A stretch of DNA of 35,061 bases from Gemmataceae bacterium. Its GTDB lineage: Bacteria; Planctomycetota; Planctomycetia; Gemmatales; Gemmataceae. The stretch is from contig JAKEHV010000268.1 in assembly GCA_022614915.1 (NCBI GenBank), positions 1 through 35,061 of the forward strand, written 5' to 3'. Positions 425-11,552 of the stretch are shown in pieces; the first letter of the stretch is position 1, and every line of letters begins with the position of its first letter. The position numbers and the translations under genes are program-made. The notes below the pieces were generated by a model that saw only the letters and a program-made list of their open reading frames with translations, was not told where the DNA came from and ran no database searches.

Positions 425-2089
425 GTGATTATTGTGAAACAAAAACTCCCAAGCGGCATGGTCCAACGCATTCGCCGGCTCGCGGCGGTGCAAACAAGTC
501 GCGAGTACGGCGACGGCGCGCTCTTGGAGCGCTTTGTCGGTGCGGCCGACGAAGCCGCGTTCACCGTGCTGGTCGAACGTCACGGCGCGATGGTGTTTGG
601 CGTGTGTCAGCGCGTCTTGGGCAACACGCACGACGCGGAAGACGCCTGTCAGGCCACCTTCTTGGTGCTGGCGCGCAAAGCGTCATCCCTGCGCAAACGC
701 TCCGCCCTGGGAAGTTGGCTGCACGGCATTGCCTTTCGCATCTCGGCCAACCTGAAACGGCAACTGGCGCGCCGGCAAAAGCGCGAACAAACCGCGCTCC
801 GGCTCCCCTCGCCCCTGGGGGGGAGAGGGGCTGGTGGTGAGGGGGCGGCCCCGCTTCGATCCACCGCGACCGATGCCGGCGGCGACCTGAGCTGGCGCGA
901 GATGCGCACCGTCCTCGACGAGGAACTCCAGCGCTTGCCCGAGCGCTACCGCACGGCCCTGGTGCTTTGCTACCTCGAAGGCGAAACCCGCGACGAAGCG
1001 GCCCATCGACTCGGCGCTACACCAGGGGCGCTGCACGGACTCTTGGAACGCGGCCGCAACCTCTTACGCGAACGGCTGATCAAGCGCGGCCTGTCGTTAT
1101 CGGCCGCACTGTTATCGACCGCTCTCGTCACGACACCCGCGCCCGCCGCCCTGCCGCCGGCGCTGGTGGTGGCGTCGGCCAAAGCCGCCGCGCTGTTGGC
1201 CAGCGGCCGATCTCTTGCGGACGTCGCGCTGGCGCCGCATATTCTCACTCTTGTTCAGGAGGCAATGAAAACCATGCTTGTAACCAAAGTAAAAATCGCC
1301 ACCGCCCTGGTGCTGAGCGCCGGGCTAGCCGTCGTGTTCCTCACCGGTTCGTGGGGTTCGGTGACCTTCGCCCAAGACAGTTATCGGTATGTTCAGGTCG
1401 CCCAGCCTGGGACACCGGCGCCGAAGCCGGAAAGCGACGCCGACTTCATCCGCCGGGTCAGCAAAGATCTGCGCGGCAAAGAGCCCACTCCCGCGGAGAT
1501 CCACTTCTTCAGCTCGAGCAAGGAAACCAACAAACGCCAAAGGCTGATCGACCTTTTCATCCAGGAACGGCAGACTGCCAAGAAAGCCGACGAAGGGACC
1601 AGTGGGACCAGAGCCCAGGCGGCGGAAGCGCTAACCAAGCTGGCGCACGCCCAGCAGCTACTGGCCGTTCGGGTGCGTTTGGCGGATGAACAAAAAGCGA
1701 GAGAAACGCGCGTCGCCCTGATCCAAAGCGACTACTTCAAGCAAGTGCTGGCCGTCACCAAGGACAAGAAAGAAGTCGAGGCGATCACGCAGAACTTCCT
1801 GGATCGGCTGATGCAATACGTCAAGGCCCATCCCAAAAACGACGACGTGCCCGACGCCATGCTGCACATTTCGTTCGTGTACCGCTCCCAAGGCAAGAAC
1901 GTGGAGGCCGACGCGTGGCGCGCCAAATTGCTCAAAGAGTATCCGAGCAGCCCGGCCGCCAAAACCGCTCAAGAAACCAGGACGAGTTTGGGCGAAGTCG
2001 TACCGCTCTTGCGCACGATCGAGAACCCGCTGCAACAAGGGCGTATTATCTATGAACTGATCGAACCCAAGGAAAAAGAGAAAAAGTAA
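425..2089 (+). CDS. ECF-type RNA polymerase sigma factor with membrane-anchored C-terminal extension
   Basis: 554 residues if the GTG at 425 is used; an in-frame ATG at 458 is equally plausible, as neither has a strong ribosome binding site. Residues about 45-112 form sigma region 2 (AFTVLVERHG, then NTHDAEDACQATFLVLARKA). Residues about 165-222 form region 4 (LPERYRTALVLCYLEGETRDEAA). An alanine/proline-rich linker leads to one transmembrane helix near residues 287-308. The exported part contains a stretch like the start of DUF1549 (FIRRVSKDLRGKEPTPAEI, about 340-358), a lysine-rich helical region, and a TPR-like ending near 468-515. Planctomycetes are known for ECF factors with such C-terminal sensory extensions, so a role in envelope-coupled transcription is inferred. 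No separate anti-sigma gene is adjacent. The linker between regions 2 and 4 carries a glycine-rich in-frame insert. Confidence 0.88.
   Translation: MIIVKQKLPSGMVQRIRRLAAVQTSREYGDGALLERFVGAADEAAFTVLVERHGAMVFGVCQRVLGNTHDAEDACQATFLVLARKASSLRKRSALGSWLHGIAFRISANLKRQLARRQKREQTALRLPSPLGGRGAGGEGAAPLRSTATDAGGDLSWREMRTVLDEELQRLPERYRTALVLCYLEGETRDEAAHRLGATPGALHGLLERGRNLLRERLIKRGLSLSAALLSTALVTTPAPAALPPALVVASAKAAALLASGRSLADVALAPHILTLVQEAMKTMLVTKVKIATALVLSAGLAVVFLTGSWGSVTFAQDSYRYVQVAQPGTPAPKPESDADFIRRVSKDLRGKEPTPAEIHFFSSSKETNKRQRLIDLFIQERQTAKKADEGTSGTRAQAAEALTKLAHAQQLLAVRVRLADEQKARETRVALIQSDYFKQVLAVTKDKKEVEAITQNFLDRLMQYVKAHPKNDDVPDAMLHISFVYRSQGKNVEADAWRAKLLKEYPSSPAAKTAQETRTSLGEVVPLLRTIENPLQQGRIIYELIEPKEKEKK
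802..846 (+). repeat. GC-rich repeat-like insert inside the sigma factor gene
   Basis: A C-run then G-run tract (clusters of CCCC, GGGG, GAGGGG) sits in frame and encodes SPLGGRGAGGEG in the linker between sigma regions 2 and 4. It resembles the widespread bacterial intergenic element that reads 'CCCTC..CCC..GGGAGAGGGG..GAGGG'. The mobile-repeat origin is inferred from this resemblance. Confidence 0.5.
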
Positions 2090-2249
2090 GCAAGACGCGA
2101 CAAGCGCGGCGCGTCGGAACCGCGCTGTCTCTCACGATCAGGCCGGCTTGGAATGTAAAGAAAAGTCGTTGACAGCCAAATCACGCTAGATTAGCCTCAT
2201 TATCATCTACTTCACTTCTCGCCCCTCCTGGCCAGCTGGAGGCTCTCCC

Positions 2250-5177
2250 ATGGCGTGTCCACGGTTTTTCCGGTGGCTCAAGTTCTTCTCCGATTCCGTT
2301 GCGTCGTTGCGAAGCGACCGAAAACTGCAATCTCCAAGTGATCTCTTGCGTTACCGGACAGGACTGTCTGAGCTGGAATCGCGCGAAGCCGCGGGTAACT
2401 TGTTCTTGTTTGATTTAGGACTACTTGGAACCGGCTTGCTGGCGCAGACGAGTCTATCCGCGGGTTTCGAGGCTGAAGAGCGCGCTGGGCAAACGGGTCA
2501 CTTGAGCGTCCTTACGAATGAAACGCATCCGGCACTGACGTTTACTCTTGCGTCATCGATTGACATTTCAACGCCCGAAGACAATCAAGAGAATGACTCG
2601 CAAAGCGCGGCGGCCTCGAGCGCGACCGACTTACTCTTCGCGCGCGAAGAACCAGTCTCTGCGGATTGGCTCGCCGATTTCGACGATCCACTTGGTGAGC
2701 CTGGATTCGTGAATCCCACTCCCGTCTCTGCGGGCGGATCGTCCGGTGGGACAAGCATGCCGGAATCGGCGAGCATTCCGCAAGTCGGCGCTGGTTCCGG
2801 AAACGCCTCAGGTCCAGTAACCACGAGTGGCGGAGCGGCAGGAGGAGGAGGACAAAACAGCGCTGCGCCTCCAACGGCCGATTTCGGACCGGCCCCTGGC
2901 GACTCTGGTGGATCACTCATCACCCCGTTCGACGGCGGCTCCAACTCCCCGCCGCAGGCCAACGACGATTCCTTCAGTGTCGTCCACGATCAAACGCTCG
3001 TGAACTACGTACTTACGAATGACAGCGACCCCGACCAGGATCCCATCACCGTCGTCAGCAACACGAATCCCAGCCACGGCGCCGTTTCCGTCAGCAGCAG
3101 CGGCCAGGTCATCTACACACCAGACACCGGCTTTGTCGGCGCCGATTCGTTCAGCTACACGATTACCGACGGCAGCGCCTTTGATTCGGCGAACGTCCTC
3201 ATCTCGGTGACGAACGAAAATCCTATTGCTGTGGATGACTCGTTCACGAGCGGACACGATCAATTGATCATCGGTTACCTGCTCGACAACGACACGGATG
3301 GGGATGAGGATTCGCTCACGGTAGTGGATCATTCGAATCCCGCTCACGGAGTGGTCACCGTCGAAAGCAGCGGTTCTTTCAACTACACGCCGGTCGGCGG
3401 CTACGTGGGCGCCGATCAATTCAGCTACACCATTTCCGATGGTGTGGCAACGAGTTCCGCGACGGTAACCCTCACTCTCACGAATGAAGCGCCCGAGGTC
3501 ACGCTGACCGAGCCCGAACCGGTTTCTGTCGCTGAGCCGATGACGCTCTTTGGCTCTTTCACCGACCCGAACGACACGATCTACGACAGCCCGTACACAC
3601 TGACGGTGCACTGGGGCGACGGCGGCACCGAACAACACACGATCGCCAGTCCAAGCGCATTCGAATACGAGCACACCTACGCAGCAATCGGCTTCTACAA
3701 CATTACGGTGGAGGTGGAGGACGCCTTAGGCGCCGTCGGCACCGCGACGGTTCAGGCGCGCGTCGCCACCGTCCAGACAGTCGAATGGGTGGCGGTCCAT
3801 AGTCCGCTGGACGCCAACCCCGGCAATGGAACGCCGGGCCCCGTCACAGCTGTGGGACTCCGCATCTTTCCGGACAAGATCACTCCCACAGACGTGCTTG
3901 ATCGACGGAAAGTTGAGATTCGCGCGACGGTGAACCCGGCTATCGCGGGCGTCAAGGTCTATTTCGCCGCAGTCGACGTGGACGATCCCTCTGATAACAC
4001 TTCGCCAGTCGACCAAGAGACTGAAGACGGCAATGAAATCCCCGACAACCGGGGCGATAGCGAATTGCCGACGTTTGGTGCCTGGACTGACGCGAACGGC
4101 GTCGCGCGCGTGCAGTTCGACGTGTCCAGGCAGCCGGGCGACAACTGGCGCGCTGTTGCCTCATGTCGTTTGGGTGACTTGGGCGGCATACGCGGCAAGC
4201 AAAACGACGCGTTGGAACTGCGCGTTGTCGATGGCAACGGCAACTTCCTGCCGACGGCCACGGCACGCGTCTCCGAGGTGCTCACCGTCTGGCGGCGCTT
4301 GCACGTCGAGGTCGATTCGATGGGTCTGGTTGAAGGCAATGAGGTGACCGGCGTGATAATAGACGTTGATTCTCACCCCGATCTTCCGAACGCGAGCATT
4401 GTGACTGTCTCGTCGGGCAGCGTTTTCACTGAACCTGCTGATCTGAATCGGTTTGTCGGGGGCGTCCTCTATGATTTCTTCGGCGCGGGGTTTCGAGTTA
4501 TTGCCAGCGACCTGAGTGATCCAGAGGGAAACTTTGTCCTCTATGTGCGCAATAATCCGGATACAGGCGCGGTGCCGTCGCTCGGTAACTTCGGACTCAT
4601 CGACGATGACTTCCTTAAAGACGGCGACGATGTCCCGATGCCGGACACGAGCACTTTGAATCAAGCGCTGAATGAGGCTTATGTGCAGGTTTTCTTCGAC
4701 GTAGGCGGCACCAATGACAACGTGCCGTTCATGGCGAATGCCGAAGAAGCCGATCTCGAACTCGATTGGAATTCGCGCAGTTTAAATGCAAATGATTACT
4801 GGGTGACCTATTTGCTTGGGGCGTTCCAAGGCTCAACGCAAGTCGATACCGATCCAAACACAGAGGTCGCACTATTGGGACAGAGTGGAGACCTGACAGG
4901 CGGTTCCTGGACATATGCGGAAACAATACGCGATGCCGCTGTCACGATGAATGTCAATCAGGACCTCCTCGCGCGCGAGACCGTAGTGCACGAAATCGGG
5001 CATGCTGTGACACATGAATCTAGCCACCCCGTAACTGGAATCAATGCAAAACTGATGACATTGCCTATTGGTCATGTCTTAGAAGTCGATGGGAGCGTGG
5101 TAACGCACCATGATTGGAGCCGTTTTCTCCCGCGCTATATAGCGCGTATTCGCTTCGTCTTTCACCCCTTCTCGTAA
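2250..5177 (+). CDS. Large secreted cadherin-like/PKD repeat protein with a C-terminal HEXXH zinc-protease motif
   Basis: 975 residues; the ATG at 2250 follows a GGAGG site. The N-terminus has the planctomycete 'L..LE.R' type leader (LSELESREAAGN) in place of a classical signal peptide. A low-complexity Ser/Gly/Pro region runs to about residue 230. Two tandem cadherin-like (Big/VCBS-type) domains follow at about 235-325 and 326-415, each with ANDDSF or AVDDSF, NDSDPDQD or NDTDGDED, and GADSFSYTI or GADQFSYTI. A PKD-like domain (WGDGGTEQHT, then YEHTYAAIGFYNITVEV) covers about 418-510. Beta-rich sequence continues to about 880. H914-E915-I-G-H918 gives a zincin HEXXH motif, with H922 or H926 as possible third ligand and a downstream LMT as possible Met-turn. 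The canonical GxxH spacing is absent, so activity is uncertain. The last 25 codons recur downstream as a duplication remnant. Confidence 0.8.
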   Translation: MACPRFFRWLKFFSDSVASLRSDRKLQSPSDLLRYRTGLSELESREAAGNLFLFDLGLLGTGLLAQTSLSAGFEAEERAGQTGHLSVLTNETHPALTFTLASSIDISTPEDNQENDSQSAAASSATDLLFAREEPVSADWLADFDDPLGEPGFVNPTPVSAGGSSGGTSMPESASIPQVGAGSGNASGPVTTSGGAAGGGGQNSAAPPTADFGPAPGDSGGSLITPFDGGSNSPPQANDDSFSVVHDQTLVNYVLTNDSDPDQDPITVVSNTNPSHGAVSVSSSGQVIYTPDTGFVGADSFSYTITDGSAFDSANVLISVTNENPIAVDDSFTSGHDQLIIGYLLDNDTDGDEDSLTVVDHSNPAHGVVTVESSGSFNYTPVGGYVGADQFSYTISDGVATSSATVTLTLTNEAPEVTLTEPEPVSVAEPMTLFGSFTDPNDTIYDSPYTLTVHWGDGGTEQHTIASPSAFEYEHTYAAIGFYNITVEVEDALGAVGTATVQARVATVQTVEWVAVHSPLDANPGNGTPGPVTAVGLRIFPDKITPTDVLDRRKVEIRATVNPAIAGVKVYFAAVDVDDPSDNTSPVDQETEDGNEIPDNRGDSELPTFGAWTDANGVARVQFDVSRQPGDNWRAVASCRLGDLGGIRGKQNDALELRVVDGNGNFLPTATARVSEVLTVWRRLHVEVDSMGLVEGNEVTGVIIDVDSHPDLPNASIVTVSSGSVFTEPADLNRFVGGVLYDFFGAGFRVIASDLSDPEGNFVLYVRNNPDTGAVPSLGNFGLIDDDFLKDGDDVPMPDTSTLNQALNEAYVQVFFDVGGTNDNVPFMANAEEADLELDWNSRSLNANDYWVTYLLGAFQGSTQVDTDPNTEVALLGQSGDLTGGSWTYAETIRDAAVTMNVNQDLLARETVVHEIGHAVTHESSHPVTGINAKLMTLPIGHVLEVDGSVVTHHDWSRFLPRYIARIRFVFHPFS

Positions 5178-5189
5178 GAGAACCTGCAC

Positions 5190-6227
5190 ATGCAAGTCCT
5201 TTTTTCGACGCTATGTAGCTTGACTTGTTTGCTGTCATGCCTTTCGTTGAGCGGGGCCGAGGCCTTGTACGCCGTTCCAGTCCAATCAAAGGAGCCAGAG
5301 CGCGGGATCACGATTGAACCACAGAAGGAGTCGTTTCTCCTGGGTGAGCCTGTGTTGCTCAGAATACGATACAAAAATGTCGGAACCGAAAATCTGATTG
5401 TACCCGAATACTGGTTCGAGGGTGGGGAGCCACCTATCGAAATATATATCTCAGAAGACGGAATTACTTTTTCGAGATTTAAGTTTGGCTACCCTATGGC
5501 GGAGCCGCTTGGTCTGTCTCGTCAATCCCTGCAACCAGGCGCGAGTTGGAGCTATGACTTGCGACTCTTGTACACCCGATTTTCCTCCGGCATGCTTGCA
5601 TTCGAAAAACCAGGAGAGTACTTCCTCAAGATTCGGAAGTCATTGGCAAAACCGAACGACATCCGTCGAGAGTCCAAGGTCCTAAGGGTGAAGATCATCG
5701 AGCCAACGGGCGTGGACGCCGAAGTTTGGAAGCGGATCCGGGACGACAAGAAGGTTTTCGAGTTGGTTCAGTCGGCTCGCGGCCCAAAGGAACCTGCTCT
5801 TACGGTTGCCGCTTTACTGCGGGAGTTCCCTAAATCGAACTATCGAGCCACGCTGTGGCATGGATTGCGCGAATTCTATTACAAACAAGGTAGCCGTCTG
5901 CGGCCGGAGGGCGAGGAGATTCGCAAGGTGCTGGGTTTCCAGGAAGTGGACACATTTGCTGACCCGCGCCTCGACGGCCGGATACGCGCCGTTGAAGGCC
6001 GAGAGATCACGGTGGGTGATTTGCTCCGCGAACTCTCTCTTCAGACGGGCATTTCACTGGAAGCCGCGACGGAACTGAAGACCACGACGGTTCCGGTCTC
6101 TTTGACCATCCGCTTGCGTGACTGCATGCGCACTGTGAGCAGCCAAATGCGCGCGCCATGGTGGCCGCAGGCTGACGGGTATTTCTTGTCGCGCGAGCCG
6201 CCGGCTGAATCCAAATCAACGAAGTAG
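5190..6227 (+). CDS. Exported protein of unknown function, first tandem paralog
   Basis: 345 residues, starting 12 nt after the large surface protein. An N-terminal signal peptide ends near SLSGAEA. The middle (about 35-165) is predicted beta-rich, with phrases such as FLLGEPVLLRIRYKNVG and EYFLKIRKS that resemble Ig-like or macroglobulin-type folds. A helical stretch around 185-250 holds PKEPALTVAALLREFPKSNY. The C-terminus (about 268-335) has LLRELSLQTGISLEAATELK followed by a beta-hairpin, reminiscent of the secretin/TonB short N-terminal (STN) fold. This domain reading is inference from pattern; I do not recognise the family. It is closely similar to the gene at 6354, mostly in the C-terminal half. 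The position suggests a periplasmic or surface role alongside the upstream protein. Confidence 0.75.
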   Translation: MQVLFSTLCSLTCLLSCLSLSGAEALYAVPVQSKEPERGITIEPQKESFLLGEPVLLRIRYKNVGTENLIVPEYWFEGGEPPIEIYISEDGITFSRFKFGYPMAEPLGLSRQSLQPGASWSYDLRLLYTRFSSGMLAFEKPGEYFLKIRKSLAKPNDIRRESKVLRVKIIEPTGVDAEVWKRIRDDKKVFELVQSARGPKEPALTVAALLREFPKSNYRATLWHGLREFYYKQGSRLRPEGEEIRKVLGFQEVDTFADPRLDGRIRAVEGREITVGDLLRELSLQTGISLEAATELKTTTVPVSLTIRLRDCMRTVSSQMRAPWWPQADGYFLSREPPAESKSTK

Positions 6228-6248
6228 ACCCTTTTGCCTAGCTAATAG

Positions 6249-6341
6249 GAATACAATAGCTTCGTGCCGCGCCACGATTGGAGCCGCTTCCTCCCGCGGT
6301 ACCTAACTCGCATTCGCTCCGTGATTCAGCCCTTCTCTTAG
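6249..6341 (+). pseudogene. Remnant copy of the 3' end of the large surface-protein gene
   Basis: A short open stretch without a start ends HDWSRFLPRYLTRIRSVI plus QPFS and TAG. The gene ending at 5177 closes HDWSRFLPRYIARIRFVF plus HPFS and TAA. The remnant lies between the two paralogs, exactly where the true gene end lies before the first paralog. It therefore marks a tandem duplication whose left breakpoint fell inside the protease gene near 5095. It has no ribosome binding site and is not expected to be a gene. Confidence 0.85.
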
Positions 6342-6353
6342 AATGAGGTCCGC

Positions 6354-7385
6354 ATGCAAACGCATTCTGCGATGCTTTCTTGCACGCTTGCAGTCGTGCT
6401 TTCCTGCGTAGTGAGCACGTCGGATCTCCCTGGCCAGCCGCCGAAGGCGAAGGTGGACCGTTCAATCACGATTTGCGCAACCAAGGATACCTATCTCATC
6501 GGTGAACCGCTGTTGCTCGAAATCTCTTACAACAACATTCGAAGTGAAAACATTACCGTCCCTGAATCTTGGATAGAAGGCGACGAGCCGCCAATTGAGA
6601 TTCTAGTTTCGGGCGATGGCATCGCCTTCACGCGGTTTCGGTTTGGCTATCCGATTTTGGAAATCTTGGATCGACCGTATCGGACGTTGAAGCCGGGCGC
6701 CAGCTGGCAATATGAGTTGCGACTGCTGTACACTCGATTCCATTCTGGCAGACTTGCCTTTCCAGTAGCAGGAAAGTACTTCCTTAAGGTTCGCAAGGAT
6801 GGGGCGAAACCGAAAGACTCGAGTTTGGATTCCAACGTGATCGGCCTTAAAATCGAAGAGCCAACGGGCGTGGACGCCAAAGTTTGGGAACGTATGCAAG
6901 ACAAGCAAATACTCGAGTTGATCCAGTCGGCCCGCGGCCCCAAGGAAACCGCGCTTGCCGTGGCCGCACTGCTGCGCGAGTTCCCCAAATCGAATTATCG
7001 GCCAACGTTAGGGCATGCCTTGCGCGAGTTCTATTTCAAGCAAGGCTACAGTGTTAAGCCCGAGGGCAAGGAAATCCGCGCAGTCCTGGGTTTCGAGGAC
7101 GTGGGCAGAATCGCTGACAAGCGCCTGGACGCCCGAATTCGTAGTTTTCTGGGCCAGGACAGAACCGTGGAAGACGTGCTCCGCGAACTCTCGCTCCAAA
7201 CGGGCATTCCGGTTGATGCCTCCCCTGAATTGAAGACCAAGGTAGTTCCCACCTCATTTACGATCCAATTGCGAGACGTTCTGCGATCCATAAGCGTCCG
7301 CCTACGCGCGCCGTGGTGGCCGCTGGCCGACGGATATCTGTTGTCGCGCGAGCCGCCGACTGCCGAGTCGAAATCAACCAAGTGA
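6354..7385 (+). CDS. Exported protein of unknown function, second tandem paralog
   Basis: 343 residues; ATG at 6354 with GAGG five bases upstream, a better ribosome binding site than that of its sister gene. It has a signal peptide (SCTLAVVLSCVVSTS) and the same architecture as the protein at 5190: a beta-rich Ig-like middle, a helical LLREFPKSNY region, and an STN-like C-terminus with VLRELSLQTGIPVDASPELK. Both proteins end in SREPP..ESKSTK. Conservation is highest after residue 165 and weaker in the signal peptide and middle, the pattern of an older duplication under selection on the C-terminal half. The family is not recognised. The frame is intact, so both copies are probably functional. 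Confidence 0.75.
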   Translation: MQTHSAMLSCTLAVVLSCVVSTSDLPGQPPKAKVDRSITICATKDTYLIGEPLLLEISYNNIRSENITVPESWIEGDEPPIEILVSGDGIAFTRFRFGYPILEILDRPYRTLKPGASWQYELRLLYTRFHSGRLAFPVAGKYFLKVRKDGAKPKDSSLDSNVIGLKIEEPTGVDAKVWERMQDKQILELIQSARGPKETALAVAALLREFPKSNYRPTLGHALREFYFKQGYSVKPEGKEIRAVLGFEDVGRIADKRLDARIRSFLGQDRTVEDVLRELSLQTGIPVDASPELKTKVVPTSFTIQLRDVLRSISVRLRAPWWPLADGYLLSREPPTAESKSTK

Positions 7386-7451
7386 ACGTGGACCTAGTCA
7401 GCCGCAGACTTCGGACTTTGCGTGGACTGCAAGAACTGCGCAGTTGGCGAG

Positions 7452-8540
7452 TTACATCATGTTTTGCAGCATTTCACGCCGCGGCACGAGGCGCTTGCCG
7501 CGGCAGTCTTCGATGTGCAGCACTTTCAAAAGCCGGCGGCGCAGCTCCGATTGCACCTGCTCGACGGCGTTGGCGGAATCGCTCGGCAACGGAATGTAGC
7601 CGCCAGCCCTGCGGTCGTGGCCACCCGCTTTGCCGCCCATTTTGCCGACGACCTGGCGGAGTATTTCGCCGGCGTGGGCGCGGTGCACGTTGGTCCGGAC
7701 GGATAAGACGAGCCGGTCGTCGTGCACGCCGCCGCATACCGCCCAGTCGATGCCTTCGTAGCGGATCATGAAATCGACCACCTGGGCGGCCAATTCCGGC
7801 GTCGGCAGTTCATTGATCCAGCTGATGAGCAAGTGATCGTAAGTGAAAGAGCTTTGCAGGGCGTGCAGCAGGGATTCGAAGAATGTTTCCGGCAGTGGGG
7901 CGTTGCGAATCTTGGCGATGATGTCCTTGTTGACCGAAGGATAAAGGAATTGCAGGGCGGTGTCGTCGAGCGCCGTCGCCTCGCGGGGCACGCCGTTCAG
8001 CTCGGTTTCGATCCCGTAATAGAGACAGGTGGCCTCGCGCTCGGGGACCTGCAAGTCCTGCTCCATGAGGTAGCGCGTCACCAGCGAGCAGGTCGCGCCC
8101 AGGCCGCGCCTTATGTCCAAGAATGGAATGTTTTCCAGGTCGCCGGGCGTCTGATGGTGGTCGATCACCGCGAACAGGTTCACTTCGCCGTTGAAAGAGT
8201 GCCGTCCGGTCTTGGGCTGGCTGTCCACCATGACGACGGCGTTGGAATCTTTCCATTTCACCTGTTCGATGGGCACCAGGTCGATGTCCAAGAGATCGAC
8301 CATGGCCCGGTTTTCGGCGCGGCAGATTTCACCGTCGCGCGTGAGGCGCGTAGGCTTGCCCAGGCACGATTCGACCAGATAGGCCAGGCCGACCATGCTC
8401 CCCAGGCTGTCGGGGTCCGGGTGGACGTGGGAAACGAACGTAACGGAGGAGTAATCCTCTAATCCATGAAGAAACCGATCAGAGCGCCGGGCGTGAGTCT
8501 TACTGCCATTCACGCCGGCTTCGGCATTGGCTTTGGACAT
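7452..8540 (-). CDS. DHH/DHHA1-family phosphoesterase (NrnA-like oligoribonuclease or related)
   Basis: 362 residues from the ATG at 8540; ATGs at 8552 and 8702 are in frame but badly spaced from the nearest GGAG. DHH-family motifs appear in order: SHVHPDPDSLGS (motif I), VVMVDSQ (motif II), VIDHHQTPGD (motif III, the DHH triad), then the C-terminal DHHA1 signature GGKAGGHDRRAGG. These motifs bind two Mn ions and hydrolyse phosphodiesters in short RNA oligonucleotides, 3'-phosphoadenosine phosphate or cyclic dinucleotides. The sequence does not decide between these substrates. It is a cytoplasmic enzyme with no signal peptide. It stands alone on the minus strand, convergent with the paralog cluster. 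Confidence 0.88.
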   Translation of the reverse strand: MSKANAEAGVNGSKTHARRSDRFLHGLEDYSSVTFVSHVHPDPDSLGSMVGLAYLVESCLGKPTRLTRDGEICRAENRAMVDLLDIDLVPIEQVKWKDSNAVVMVDSQPKTGRHSFNGEVNLFAVIDHHQTPGDLENIPFLDIRRGLGATCSLVTRYLMEQDLQVPEREATCLYYGIETELNGVPREATALDDTALQFLYPSVNKDIIAKIRNAPLPETFFESLLHALQSSFTYDHLLISWINELPTPELAAQVVDFMIRYEGIDWAVCGGVHDDRLVLSVRTNVHRAHAGEILRQVVGKMGGKAGGHDRRAGGYIPLPSDSANAVEQVQSELRRRLLKVLHIEDCRGKRLVPRREMLQNMM

Positions 8541-8723
8541 AGCTGCAAACATCTCCGGGCCTGGACAATTCCCTTGGCAAGCAGCTCGCTCCGCGAGTCG
8601 CTGGGACTCTCTGAAAGGGAGAACGGGCGGAATCCGCCGTTGCCGGGGATTCCGGATTATCCAGTGCCGCCGACTTTGCCATCCCTCCTTGGCAAGCTCC
8701 ATTTTACCAAAAAGTAGGGGGTG

Positions 8724-9182
8724 TCAAGGTTTCGGCCTCCCTCCGAAACCGCCAAGCTCCATAACGCGACGCCACTGCTCCGGGCTGACCGGGACGACCG
8801 AAAGCCGGCCCACGCGGACCAGGTCCCAAGTCCGAAGCAGTTTGTCTTCCTTAATTGTTTGTAATGTAAGAGGTTGCGCCCAACGCCGTGCAGCCTTCAC
8901 TTTGACGACGACTGACTTGGGATCGGCGCTGGCGGGGTCCGCCATGGGGCCTTCGAGGACTGTCATTTCGCCAACAATTGCGCGCACTTTGCCGGTATGG
9001 TAATAGAGCACCCGATCGCCTGACCGCACTGTTCGAAGGTATTTCCGGGCAAGATTATTTTCAATCCCGTCCCAAAGTGTCGTCTGGTCACGTTCCATGT
9101 CGTCATAGCTGTAATGGTCCGGCTCTTCCTTGAAAAGCCAGCCTCCCTGCGGTTTTTCCAGGGTTTCTTGACGTTTCGCCAT
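8724..9182 (-). CDS. EVE domain-containing protein
   Basis: 152 residues from the ATG at 9182 (MAKRQETLEKPQGGWLFK). The sequence covers a whole EVE domain: GGWLFKEEPDHYSYDDM at the start, TLWDGIENNLARKYLRTVRS, then GDRVLYYHTGKVRAIVGEM and the closing LVRVGRLSVVPVSPEQW. EVE is a PUA-like fold, related to YTH, that is thought to bind modified bases in DNA or RNA, so a nucleic-acid-modification reader is the likely role. The frame stays open upstream to 9347 and would add a hydrophobic segment, but a sigma-70-like promoter just before 9182 argues for the shorter start. The gene follows the thioredoxin-fold gene across a long intergenic gap and appears to be its own transcription unit. Confidence 0.9.
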   Translation of the reverse strand: MAKRQETLEKPQGGWLFKEEPDHYSYDDMERDQTTLWDGIENNLARKYLRTVRSGDRVLYYHTGKVRAIVGEMTVLEGPMADPASADPKSVVVKVKAARRWAQPLTLQTIKEDKLLRTWDLVRVGRLSVVPVSPEQWRRVMELGGFGGRPKP

Positions 9183-9217
9183 GATGACCCCAACGGCGAT
9201 GAAGCAAACGGCTGTTG

Positions 9218-9246
9218 ATGCTAGCAGGGCCAAGAGCGGTTCGCAA
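9218..9246 (-). promoter_or_regulatory. Candidate sigma-70-type promoter for the EVE-domain gene
   Basis: Read on the minus strand, TTGCGA (9246-9241) and TAGCAT (9223-9218) are separated by exactly 17 bp. Each hexamer matches four of six consensus bases. Transcription would start near 9211, about 29 nt before the chosen ATG. Confidence 0.35.
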
Positions 9247-9451
9247 GACCCTGATCGACTGAAAAATTCAGAAAATCGCGGCCCGCAGCTGCTCATAGGG
9301 TGTGGCAAGTTACTGCGCTTTGATTGCAATGTGCTGATTTGACACAACTAACAACATTCTAATAAGTTATGTCACCGCTGTCACTTTCGGCAATGGCGCT
9401 ATCTCAAACTCGTGGGATTCCGAGGCCAAAGGGGTATGACTATGCACGAGT

Positions 9452-9565
9452 TGGCAAGAACGAGTGTTTCTCGAATGGCAAGCTACTGTTAATAAATAGT
9501 TTATGGCAATTGCTCCGTTCTTGCCAACAGGGGTAAAATGTGGCAAGAACGAGCCGTTCTTGCCA
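9452..9565. repeat. Four alternating copies of TGGCAAGAACG
   Basis: TGGCAAGAACG occurs at 9452-9462 and 9541-9551 on the plus strand, and inverted at 9516-9526 and 9555-9565. The last two form a perfect 11-bp stem with a 3-nt loop; the middle pair can also fold, giving alternative hairpins. It may be a protein-binding array, a structured RNA, or the scar of a small element. Confidence 0.8.
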
Positions 9566-9613
9566 CTTGCAACGTCCACGAACTAAGCGAGAGAGAAAGA
9601 ACGCTCGGCAAAC

Positions 9614-9647
9614 AAAAAAACCGGGTTCGAGTCGCCTCGAACCCGGT
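9614..9647 (-). terminator. Rho-independent terminator of the thioredoxin-fold gene
   Basis: On the minus strand a 12-bp perfect stem (ACCGGGTTCGAG with its complement) around a 4-nt loop is followed by seven T residues (9620-9614). It lies about 22 nt beyond the stop codon at 9669. Confidence 0.85.
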
Positions 9648-9668
9648 GCGCGGGAGCCAGGGGGTAGC

Positions 9669-11552
9669 TTACAGCGCCTTTTTGAGCTCCGATTCCAGAT
9701 CGCCGACTTGCAACGTCCGATTCAGCACTCGGCCATCGCGGCCGACGAGAAACAAATTCGGCAAGCCATTGATGCCGTATTGGGTGGCGTAAGGGCTCGA
9801 CAGGCCGGTGCCGTCCTTGGGCGTCTGAAAAAGATGAATTCCCGGAGCTTGGACCTTCTGCAGGAACTTCGTGGCGTTCTCCGCCTTGTCGTCCAGGCTG
9901 ACGCACACGAGCTCCATGTCCTTGTTGCTGGCAGCCAAGCGCTTCAGCGTATCGAAGTCGCGGCTGCACACATCGACATAACTGGCCCAATAATACACAA
10001 CCACGACTTTGCCCTTGAGCTGAGCGATGTCGAAAGGAGCGCCGCCGCCTAAGCGCGGGCCGGCCAATTCCAGCGGTTGACCGACCAGGCTGAGCCTTTT
10101 CTTGGCGCCGCGCGCCTTCTCCGCCAGGAAATGGTCGGGGAAGTTGGTGTAAATCGCCTCGTAATTGCGCTTGGCTTCTTCGTCCTTACCGCTGTACTCG
10201 CTACCCATTGCCACGGTGTGCAGCGCTTCGGGCGTGTCGTCGGCCTTGGGATAGGCCTTAGTGAACTGGAGCAGCTTTTCGTGCCATTCCGCGTGCATCT
10301 TGGTCGCTTCCTGCTCCGTCTTCGCGCTGGCCAGCTTGGGGGTGTAAATGGCCAAGAGTTCGCGATAGGCGGCGAAGCCAGCCATGTTGCTGCCGGCCAG
10401 GTTCTTTTCGAAGTGGGCGCGGAATTGACCGAGGCGGGCCAGAGATTCTTCGCTGCCCGCTTGGGCGCTGGCGCTTAAGTTATCGCAAATCTGCTTGTAC
10501 CAATTCTCGCGTTCCTCAGCCTTTACTACTTGCAGAATGTTCTCGACAATCTTCACGCGCTGCAAGTTATAGGCCTGAACCGCTTTGTCCACTTTGGGCG
10601 TCAAAAGCGGTTCGGGAGCGGCTTTGTCGAGCGCATCGAGCGCTGTCAACAATTGCTGAAGCTGCGGGTTGGCGCCGACCACCTGAATGCTCGGGTTGTC
10701 GTAGGGGTCAGAGAAGCCGGGGGTGGGCGCGTCCGCGAGCCGCCAGGACAGGCCGACTTGGATCATCTCGCCGGTTTGAATCCAATCATGTTTCTTGTCG
10801 GCGCCTTCGTAAAGGATGGCGCGGCTGGAATACTTGATGAGGTCCTGCTCGGCGCCGATCGCCTCGGCGGGCACGCAGCTGGGCGTGGCGGCTTCGACGT
10901 GTTGGAAGCGGGCTTTTTCCAGGCCGGGCAGTTTCGCCAAAGCCGCCTGGAACTTGGCCGCCGCGCCTTTTTGCAGTTGCGTCAGGCGCTGCACTTGGGC
11001 GGCGGGCAGTTTCAAGGCCTTCATCTCGGCCTCGGTGATGAACAGCGCCTGCAGCCGGGCGAAATCGCGCTGGGCCAATGCATGAAACACTTCCTGGGCC
11101 GCTTCTTCGGACGAGATCAGACGCCAGACGTCGATCTTGCCGTCTTCGTTTGTGTCCACGCCCCACTTCATGCCGCCGTTGTTCAGCCAGCGAAACTGGT
11201 CCTTGGACTGGTTGAAGTTGCTGTCGATTTCGCGCAGCACTTCCTGTCCGTCCTTGTAATAGGACCAGACGTCCACTTTCTCGTCGCCGTTGGAATCGAA
11301 GAAACGGCGCAGCGGCTGCTTCTTGCCATCGAGAATGAGCCAGCCATTGGAGCCTTTGCGCATGCCGCTCACGCCCTTGACCTCGCAGTCTTTCATTTCT
11401 TCCGCCGTGGGCGTGCTGATGCTAACGTCCGCATACTGGGGTTGGACGGCCAGGGCTTGGGCCACGGTGGGAGGCGGGGCCGCGGATGCTAAAGCGCCGG
11501 CCGCAAGCACGCAACCGCTCAAGAAGCCGCGAATGAAGATCGTGCGCGTCAT
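9669..11552 (-). CDS. Exported thioredoxin-fold (TlpA/AhpC-like) protein without a CXXC active site
   Basis: 627 residues; the ATG at 11552 follows AAAGGAG at good spacing and opens a signal peptide (GFLSGCVLAAGALASAA). Two EF-hand-like acidic loops lie at residues 86-96 (DSNGDEKVDVW) and 133-143 (DTNEDGKIDVW), suggesting calcium binding. A long helical middle region ends in a TPR-like stretch (YPKADDTPEALHTVAM). The C-terminal 125 residues form a thioredoxin fold: KGKVVVVYYWASYVDVC aligns with the usual WATWCGPC, and GLPNLFLV supplies the cis-proline. The first cysteine is replaced by V526 while C529 remains, so ordinary dithiol exchange is not possible. A structural, chaperone-like or peroxiredoxin-like role is open. 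It acts outside the cytoplasm. The gene is monocistronic with its own terminator. Confidence 0.85.
   Translation of the reverse strand: MTRTIFIRGFLSGCVLAAGALASAAPPPTVAQALAVQPQYADVSISTPTAEEMKDCEVKGVSGMRKGSNGWLILDGKKQPLRRFFDSNGDEKVDVWSYYKDGQEVLREIDSNFNQSKDQFRWLNNGGMKWGVDTNEDGKIDVWRLISSEEAAQEVFHALAQRDFARLQALFITEAEMKALKLPAAQVQRLTQLQKGAAAKFQAALAKLPGLEKARFQHVEAATPSCVPAEAIGAEQDLIKYSSRAILYEGADKKHDWIQTGEMIQVGLSWRLADAPTPGFSDPYDNPSIQVVGANPQLQQLLTALDALDKAAPEPLLTPKVDKAVQAYNLQRVKIVENILQVVKAEERENWYKQICDNLSASAQAGSEESLARLGQFRAHFEKNLAGSNMAGFAAYRELLAIYTPKLASAKTEQEATKMHAEWHEKLLQFTKAYPKADDTPEALHTVAMGSEYSGKDEEAKRNYEAIYTNFPDHFLAEKARGAKKRLSLVGQPLELAGPRLGGGAPFDIAQLKGKVVVVYYWASYVDVCSRDFDTLKRLAASNKDMELVCVSLDDKAENATKFLQKVQAPGIHLFQTPKDGTGLSSPYATQYGINGLPNLFLVGRDGRVLNRTLQVGDLESELKKAL

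Follow-up and report, generated by a model that had tools for sequence, protein, structure and literature searches.

The locus raises the question of how a short copy of the 3' end of a surface-protease gene came to lie between two paralogous genes for exported proteins, and of whether that copy was inert from the outset. The window is the whole stretch of DNA analysed, 35,061 nt, and makes up contig C178 in a draft genome of 6.14 Mb (601 contigs, 86% complete).

Organization of the locus

The protease gene (P), the first exported-protein gene (E1), the tail copy (T2) and the second exported-protein gene (E2) lie in that order on the same strand. The features are as follows.

2250 to 5177, + strand: P, a 975-residue surface protein with a Big_9/cadherin-like and PKD-like stalk and a C-terminal putative zinc-protease module (from the ORF and Pfam).
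5100 to 5177, + strand: P tail, the final 25 codons and stop; 60 of 78 bases identical to 6264-6341; C-terminal signature F...I..IR.
5190 to 6227, + strand: E1, 345 residues, exported; Ig-like domain, helices and small C-terminal alpha/beta domain (from the ORF, alignment and model).
6228 to 6263, + strand: junction between E1 and T2, with in-frame TAA at 6243 and TAG at 6246; source not detected.
6264 to 6341, + strand: T2, second copy of the protease tail, a 25-codon ORF from GTG to TAG with coding-type divergence.
6354 to 7385, + strand: E2, paralog of E1, 343 residues, 61% identical; GAGG 5 nt 5' of the ATG.

The stop-to-start gap is 12 nt in both copies, from the P tail to E1 and from T2 to E2. 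A Shine-Dalgarno (SD)-like GGAGG lies 7 nt upstream of the P start. Unlike P and E2, E1 has no SD-like match of at least 4 bases upstream (5170-5189) and, given this, its translation may depend on that of P. A sigma-70-type ORF (425-2089) lies upstream of P, and about four same-strand neighbour pairs within 40 nt of each other were counted in the window (ORF list, judged by eye). Scans of 2000-7500 were uninformative: the promoter scan returned 0 sites, including none separate for E2, and the terminator scan returned 7 against 6.0 expected.

The tandem duplication

Comparison of 4901-6300 with 6201-7500 by blastn gave a single alignment with 769 of 1134 columns identical (68%, E 1e-105), which pairs 5104-6225 with 6268-7383 and runs from the 3' end of P into both E genes. 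The same pair was returned by the repeat finder as three ungapped blocks at offsets 1155, 1158 and 1164. One of these, block D3 (5094-5219 / 6258-6383, 71%), spans the protease tail, the 12-nt gap and the start of E. The P tail and T2 are aligned at offset 1164, the same offset as the E start, and their 60 identical bases out of 78 compare with a best identity of 0.50 among 20,000 random pairs of 78-base stretches drawn from the window. The left limit of detectable similarity was placed at about 5094/6258 because the 34 bases upstream (5060-5093) match at just 0.38 at offset 1164; the right limit coincides with the stop codons of E1 and E2. When the 3' flank of E1 (6228-6263) was compared with the E2 flank, the protease start and the protease body, nothing rose above shuffled sequence. 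A 72-residue protease-tail query against the same genome recovered itself and C178:6255-6338 (E 2.4e-7, 68%) and, apart from a noise match at E 0.95, nothing else.

The two copies thus stand head to tail with continuous nucleotide similarity, and a single E gene follows P in relatives (G024, G317, G080 and G332) and on contig C434 of the same genome. A real, old tandem duplication with a relic of the protease tail is confirmed. The first-pass annotation had proposed such an event, including upstream DNA, and the alignment bears it out; the tail match is not due to chance, since nucleotide similarity runs on into the paralogs through D3. The annotation had drawn the tail copy at 6249-6341 and described it as lacking a start. 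Its open frame stands, but the detectable match begins only at about 6258, and an in-frame GTG at 6264 opens the 25-codon ORF that ends at TAG 6339-6341.

Age of the duplication and selection on E1 and E2

The E1 and E2 proteins are 61% identical and both frames are open. The N-terminus is the most diverged part, with 37.5% amino acid identity over the first 40 codons vs. 58.5-68.8% in the other three stretches, in keeping with the earlier remark that divergence is strongest in the signal region. A Leu-Ser-Cys is kept in the hydrophobic start of both E1 (5190-5240) and E2 (6354-6407), which we presume could be a lipoprotein signal.

Over 341 codons the two genes differ at 101, 66 and 176 sites in codon positions 1, 2 and 3, respectively (dN 0.29, dS 1.37), and half of the 106 fourfold sites are identical. 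The duplication is old, as had been supposed, with synonymous sites near saturation, and E is under purifying selection with dN/dS about 0.2. In relative-rate tests, unique changes in E1 and E2 numbered 20 vs. 21 with G024 as the outgroup (p 1.0) and 14 vs. 16 with G317 (p 0.86). E1 and E2 therefore evolve at equal rates, with no sign of either running free. The suggestion that the duplication served diversification finds no gene-wide support in this dN/dS or in the even relative rates.

Divergence of the tail copy

T2 differs from the P tail at 17 sites in 25 codons, distributed as 4, 2 and 11 over codon positions 1, 2 and 3 (dN 0.134, dS 1.01), and has acquired no stop or indel relative to it. 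The C-terminal signature of the family (F, P, Y, IR) is kept. T2 keeps IRS, like G024 and G317, at the place where present-day P has IRF. The nearest SD-like sequence to GTG 6264 is AGGA, 13 nt off. Gene conversion was considered as the cause of the good tail match and was rejected, third-position differences in the tail (11/25) being near those of E (176/341).

The divergence of T2 was simulated with 4000 runs per setting at neutral rates of 0.4 and 0.6 per branch, the latter being the value that reproduces the third-position divergence of E. The tail and E were assumed to share one neutral rate, and the omega values (0.05-0.2) were chosen rather than fitted; the test rests on 17 differences, the tail being 25 codons. 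Had T2 been unconstrained since the duplication, 16-23 differences at positions 1 and 2 would be expected vs. the 6 observed, with P at most 0.0013 at rate 0.4 and 0/4000 at rate 0.6, whichever of the three omega values was used. Constraint over half of the branch gave P of 0.013-0.107 (rate 0.4) or at most 0.0057 (rate 0.6), and constraint over the full branch gave 0.09-0.997. The divergence is thus not blind to codon position, as that of a fragment inert since the duplication would be. Constraint must have covered some half to three quarters of the T2 branch, if not more, and for much of its history T2 was selected at the level of the protein. The view that the protease piece was carried along as a dead fragment conflicts with both the coding-type divergence and the simulation.

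Origin of the relic

Two P+E units probably existed, the body of the second protease gene being lost late with its last 25 codons left behind. Two protease-partner units, P1-E1 and P2-E2, would once have stood at the locus or been the parts from which it was put together. They would have evolved apart over a long period in which selection acted on the protein sequence of both tails. Nearly all of P2 would later have been lost, either by deletion or by a recombination that put P1-E1 onto the P2-E2 tail. Of P2 only the final 25 codons would remain, attached to E2, with the ribosome-binding site of E2 itself just beyond the tail and both E1 and E2 still under selection. That a full P2 once existed, and the order of events, we infer. 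P-E pairs occur as units elsewhere, and a second, diverged pair is present in the same genome. Moreover, with an SD-like GAGG of its own at 5 nt, E2 does not have to depend on T2. Against the late loss of P2, the junction at 6228-6263 has no trace of a P2 start or of its upstream DNA, and a 25-codon ORF that is still translated would give an equal pattern. An intact P1-E1-P2-E2 array was absent from the genomes searched, in which the genus is represented by this genome alone.

Such continued translation is the less probable of these two explanations, although it deserves some weight. T2 would then be a minicistron kept by selection, in which ribosomes starting at GTG 6264 stop 12 nt before E2 and aid its start, or the peptide itself has a role. 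The open GTG-TAG frame, the coding-type divergence and the equal 12-nt distance in both copies are all consistent with this, and PMC10666635 reports that the last 15 nt of an upstream gene suffice for coupling. However, the same source reports that re-initiation in E. coli falls by 40-80% at +14 nt, GTG 6264 has only the AGGA at 13 nt whereas E2 has its GAGG, and coupling by itself would not preserve amino acid sequence. The view of the first-pass annotation, that E was duplicated with only the 3' end of P and that the tail copy was inert from the outset, requires the simplest count of events and agrees with a similarity that begins at about 5094/6258 with no P sequence seen upstream. The excess of expected over observed changes at positions 1 and 2 and the freedom of the copy from stops and indels nevertheless make it improbable. 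Late loss of P2 is preferred over both because selection on protein sequence is more readily expected of a full protease gene than of a coupling leader. An F...I..IR-type signature ends all 12 of the aligned P proteins, and the likeness of the tails could in principle be convergence on this common motif rather than descent shared with the E duplication. That explanation is refuted by the match at the DNA level, far above random and at the E-start offset, with D3 continuing into E, and we give it almost no credence.

The P and E proteins

The stalk of P is variable, with Big_9/cadherin and PKD domains in the window, SdrD_B on C434 and PKD in G080. The HExxH motif is found in 12/12 aligned P proteins and at both remaining places; in the P of the window it reads HEIGH and lies near the C-terminus. 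No Pfam family matched the C-terminal module of this protein at E up to 5, and Reprolysin_3 and Zincin_1 appeared below the cut-off in the C434 and G080 proteins. P is a putative zinc metallopeptidase. The model of the C-terminal module had a mean pLDDT of 28 and was useless.

The E1 model (mean pLDDT 64.5, medium confidence) has a beta-sandwich (38-170), helices (174-247) and a small alpha/beta domain (272-333). Residues 38-170 matched a domain of the GH3 protein BglX (6r5r_A; Z 8.2, rmsd 3.4, 96 aligned), and residues 37-172 matched residues 23-154 of AsaP1 (2x3c; Z 7.5, rmsd 4.6, 106 aligned). The predicted sandwich resembles the common FnIII/Ig-like domains, such as the GH3 C-terminal domain and the N-terminal stretch of AsaP1. 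However, identity is 12-20% in the best rows, Z is in the range of a common arrangement and the model is of medium confidence; the likeness is one of predicted fold and need not mean a shared function. The fold search with E returned generic beta-sandwiches only and barely probed the helical and C-terminal parts.

No family in Pfam or NCBIfam fits E, and a sequence search of solved structures with E, P and the E C-terminus gave nothing above noise. In its order of secondary structure the modelled E C-terminus resembles the Secretin/TonB short N-terminal domain, but Pfam matched none of the 4 members compared (E up to 10). The Ig-like domain gave no Pfam match to the intracellular proteinase inhibitor BsuPI in 9 members (E up to 1). 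Because the starts are signal-peptide-like and the gene order is kept, we infer that E may act outside the cytoplasm as a partner of the protease P, whether adaptor, inhibitor or substrate.

P and its partners in related genomes

E, with its Ig-like domain, helices and small C-terminal domain, is a rare family. Its profile matched 5/95 genomes of the family, 7/102 of the order and 12/397 of the class; in 5 of these 12 (G005, G137:C35, G294, G307 and G381) the match lies only behind the Ig-like domain, and these were not counted as P partners. The P profile matched 11/397 class genomes at 14 distinct places, each of which was inspected. An E-family gene directly follows P at six of them (the window, C434, G024, G080, G317 and G332). 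At seven others (G137, G367, G202 twice, G048 twice and G085) P is followed by a different co-oriented protein with a hydrophobic start. At the last, G290, P is a fragment with no exported partner after it. These adjacency counts stand without a control set of random gene pairs, and the partner signal peptides were read by eye. By Pfam the other partners are WD40-like propellers (G137, G367), HEAT (G202:C53) and DUF3108-like (G085); both G048 partner genes and that of G202:C24 had no Pfam match.

The second P-E pair of the genome lies on contig C434 (3491-9891), with an ORF behind it (8389-9891) that by eye looks sigma-factor-like. The gap between P and its partner is 18 nt in G024 and G317 and 4 nt in G202:C24, and G080 has a 4-nt overlap at the first GTG. 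Such short gaps are like those of pairs coupled by termination and re-initiation. However, gaps of 12-18 nt are at the edge of the E. coli range measured in PMC10666635, and coupling of P with its partner would be putative.

At G202:C24 (1-4466) a surface zinc-protease gene precedes two tandem exported partner paralogs, the second broken, which are 36% identical over the stitched protein; no protease tail was seen between them. Here the partner slot has a tandem duplication that arose independently, in another family and with a different partner type. Furthermore, G018 carries three tandem E-family genes without P (G018:C759, 1194-4832, minus strand). About 0.2 kb upstream of the first is an open frame with AVERLEDRSVPAVV, LEDRSVPAVV-like, which resembles the start of a planctomycete surface protein; judged from this sequence, G018 could be another case in which P was lost and E kept. 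E is also found without P in G013 and G096, where the gene beside it looks by eye like one for a cobalamin-binding protein. In the N-terminal part of the G096 E-family gene, an in-frame TGA stands at the position of an Arg codon in G013. A single-protein pattern scan of genome contigs found no close relatives; the nearest named relative found by alignment is Gemmatales bacterium KatS3mg105, a metagenome assembly.

Significance of the locus

The duplication itself is ordinary genome wear and is not new. As in other tandem duplications that leave a truncated neighbour, the repeated block holds one whole gene and the end of the next. It differs from them in that the truncated neighbour has coding-type divergence and that the truncation seems to be later than the duplication. 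The new elements are the date assigned to the relic and the cassette of P and its partner. The relic is a dated scar, in which the codon-position counts of 25 codons indicate a gene copy lost long after it arose. Literature searches, at the level of listings, returned no paper on the protease-partner pairing, which is apparently undescribed.

The locus brings to light a rare gene pair of planctomycete-type bacteria, in which a surface zinc protease has an exported partner. A tentative reading, to which we give less than an even chance, is that the class has an extracytoplasmic cassette of two genes in which P always comes first. This surface zinc protease would have an exported interaction protein immediately behind it, and lineages would exchange one type of that protein for another (Ig plus helices, WD40-like propeller, HEAT or DUF3108-like). 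Partners would be duplicated in tandem, protease copies would be lost, and the partner would set the target or the activity of the protease. If this reading is true, E1 and E2 would give one protease two partners.
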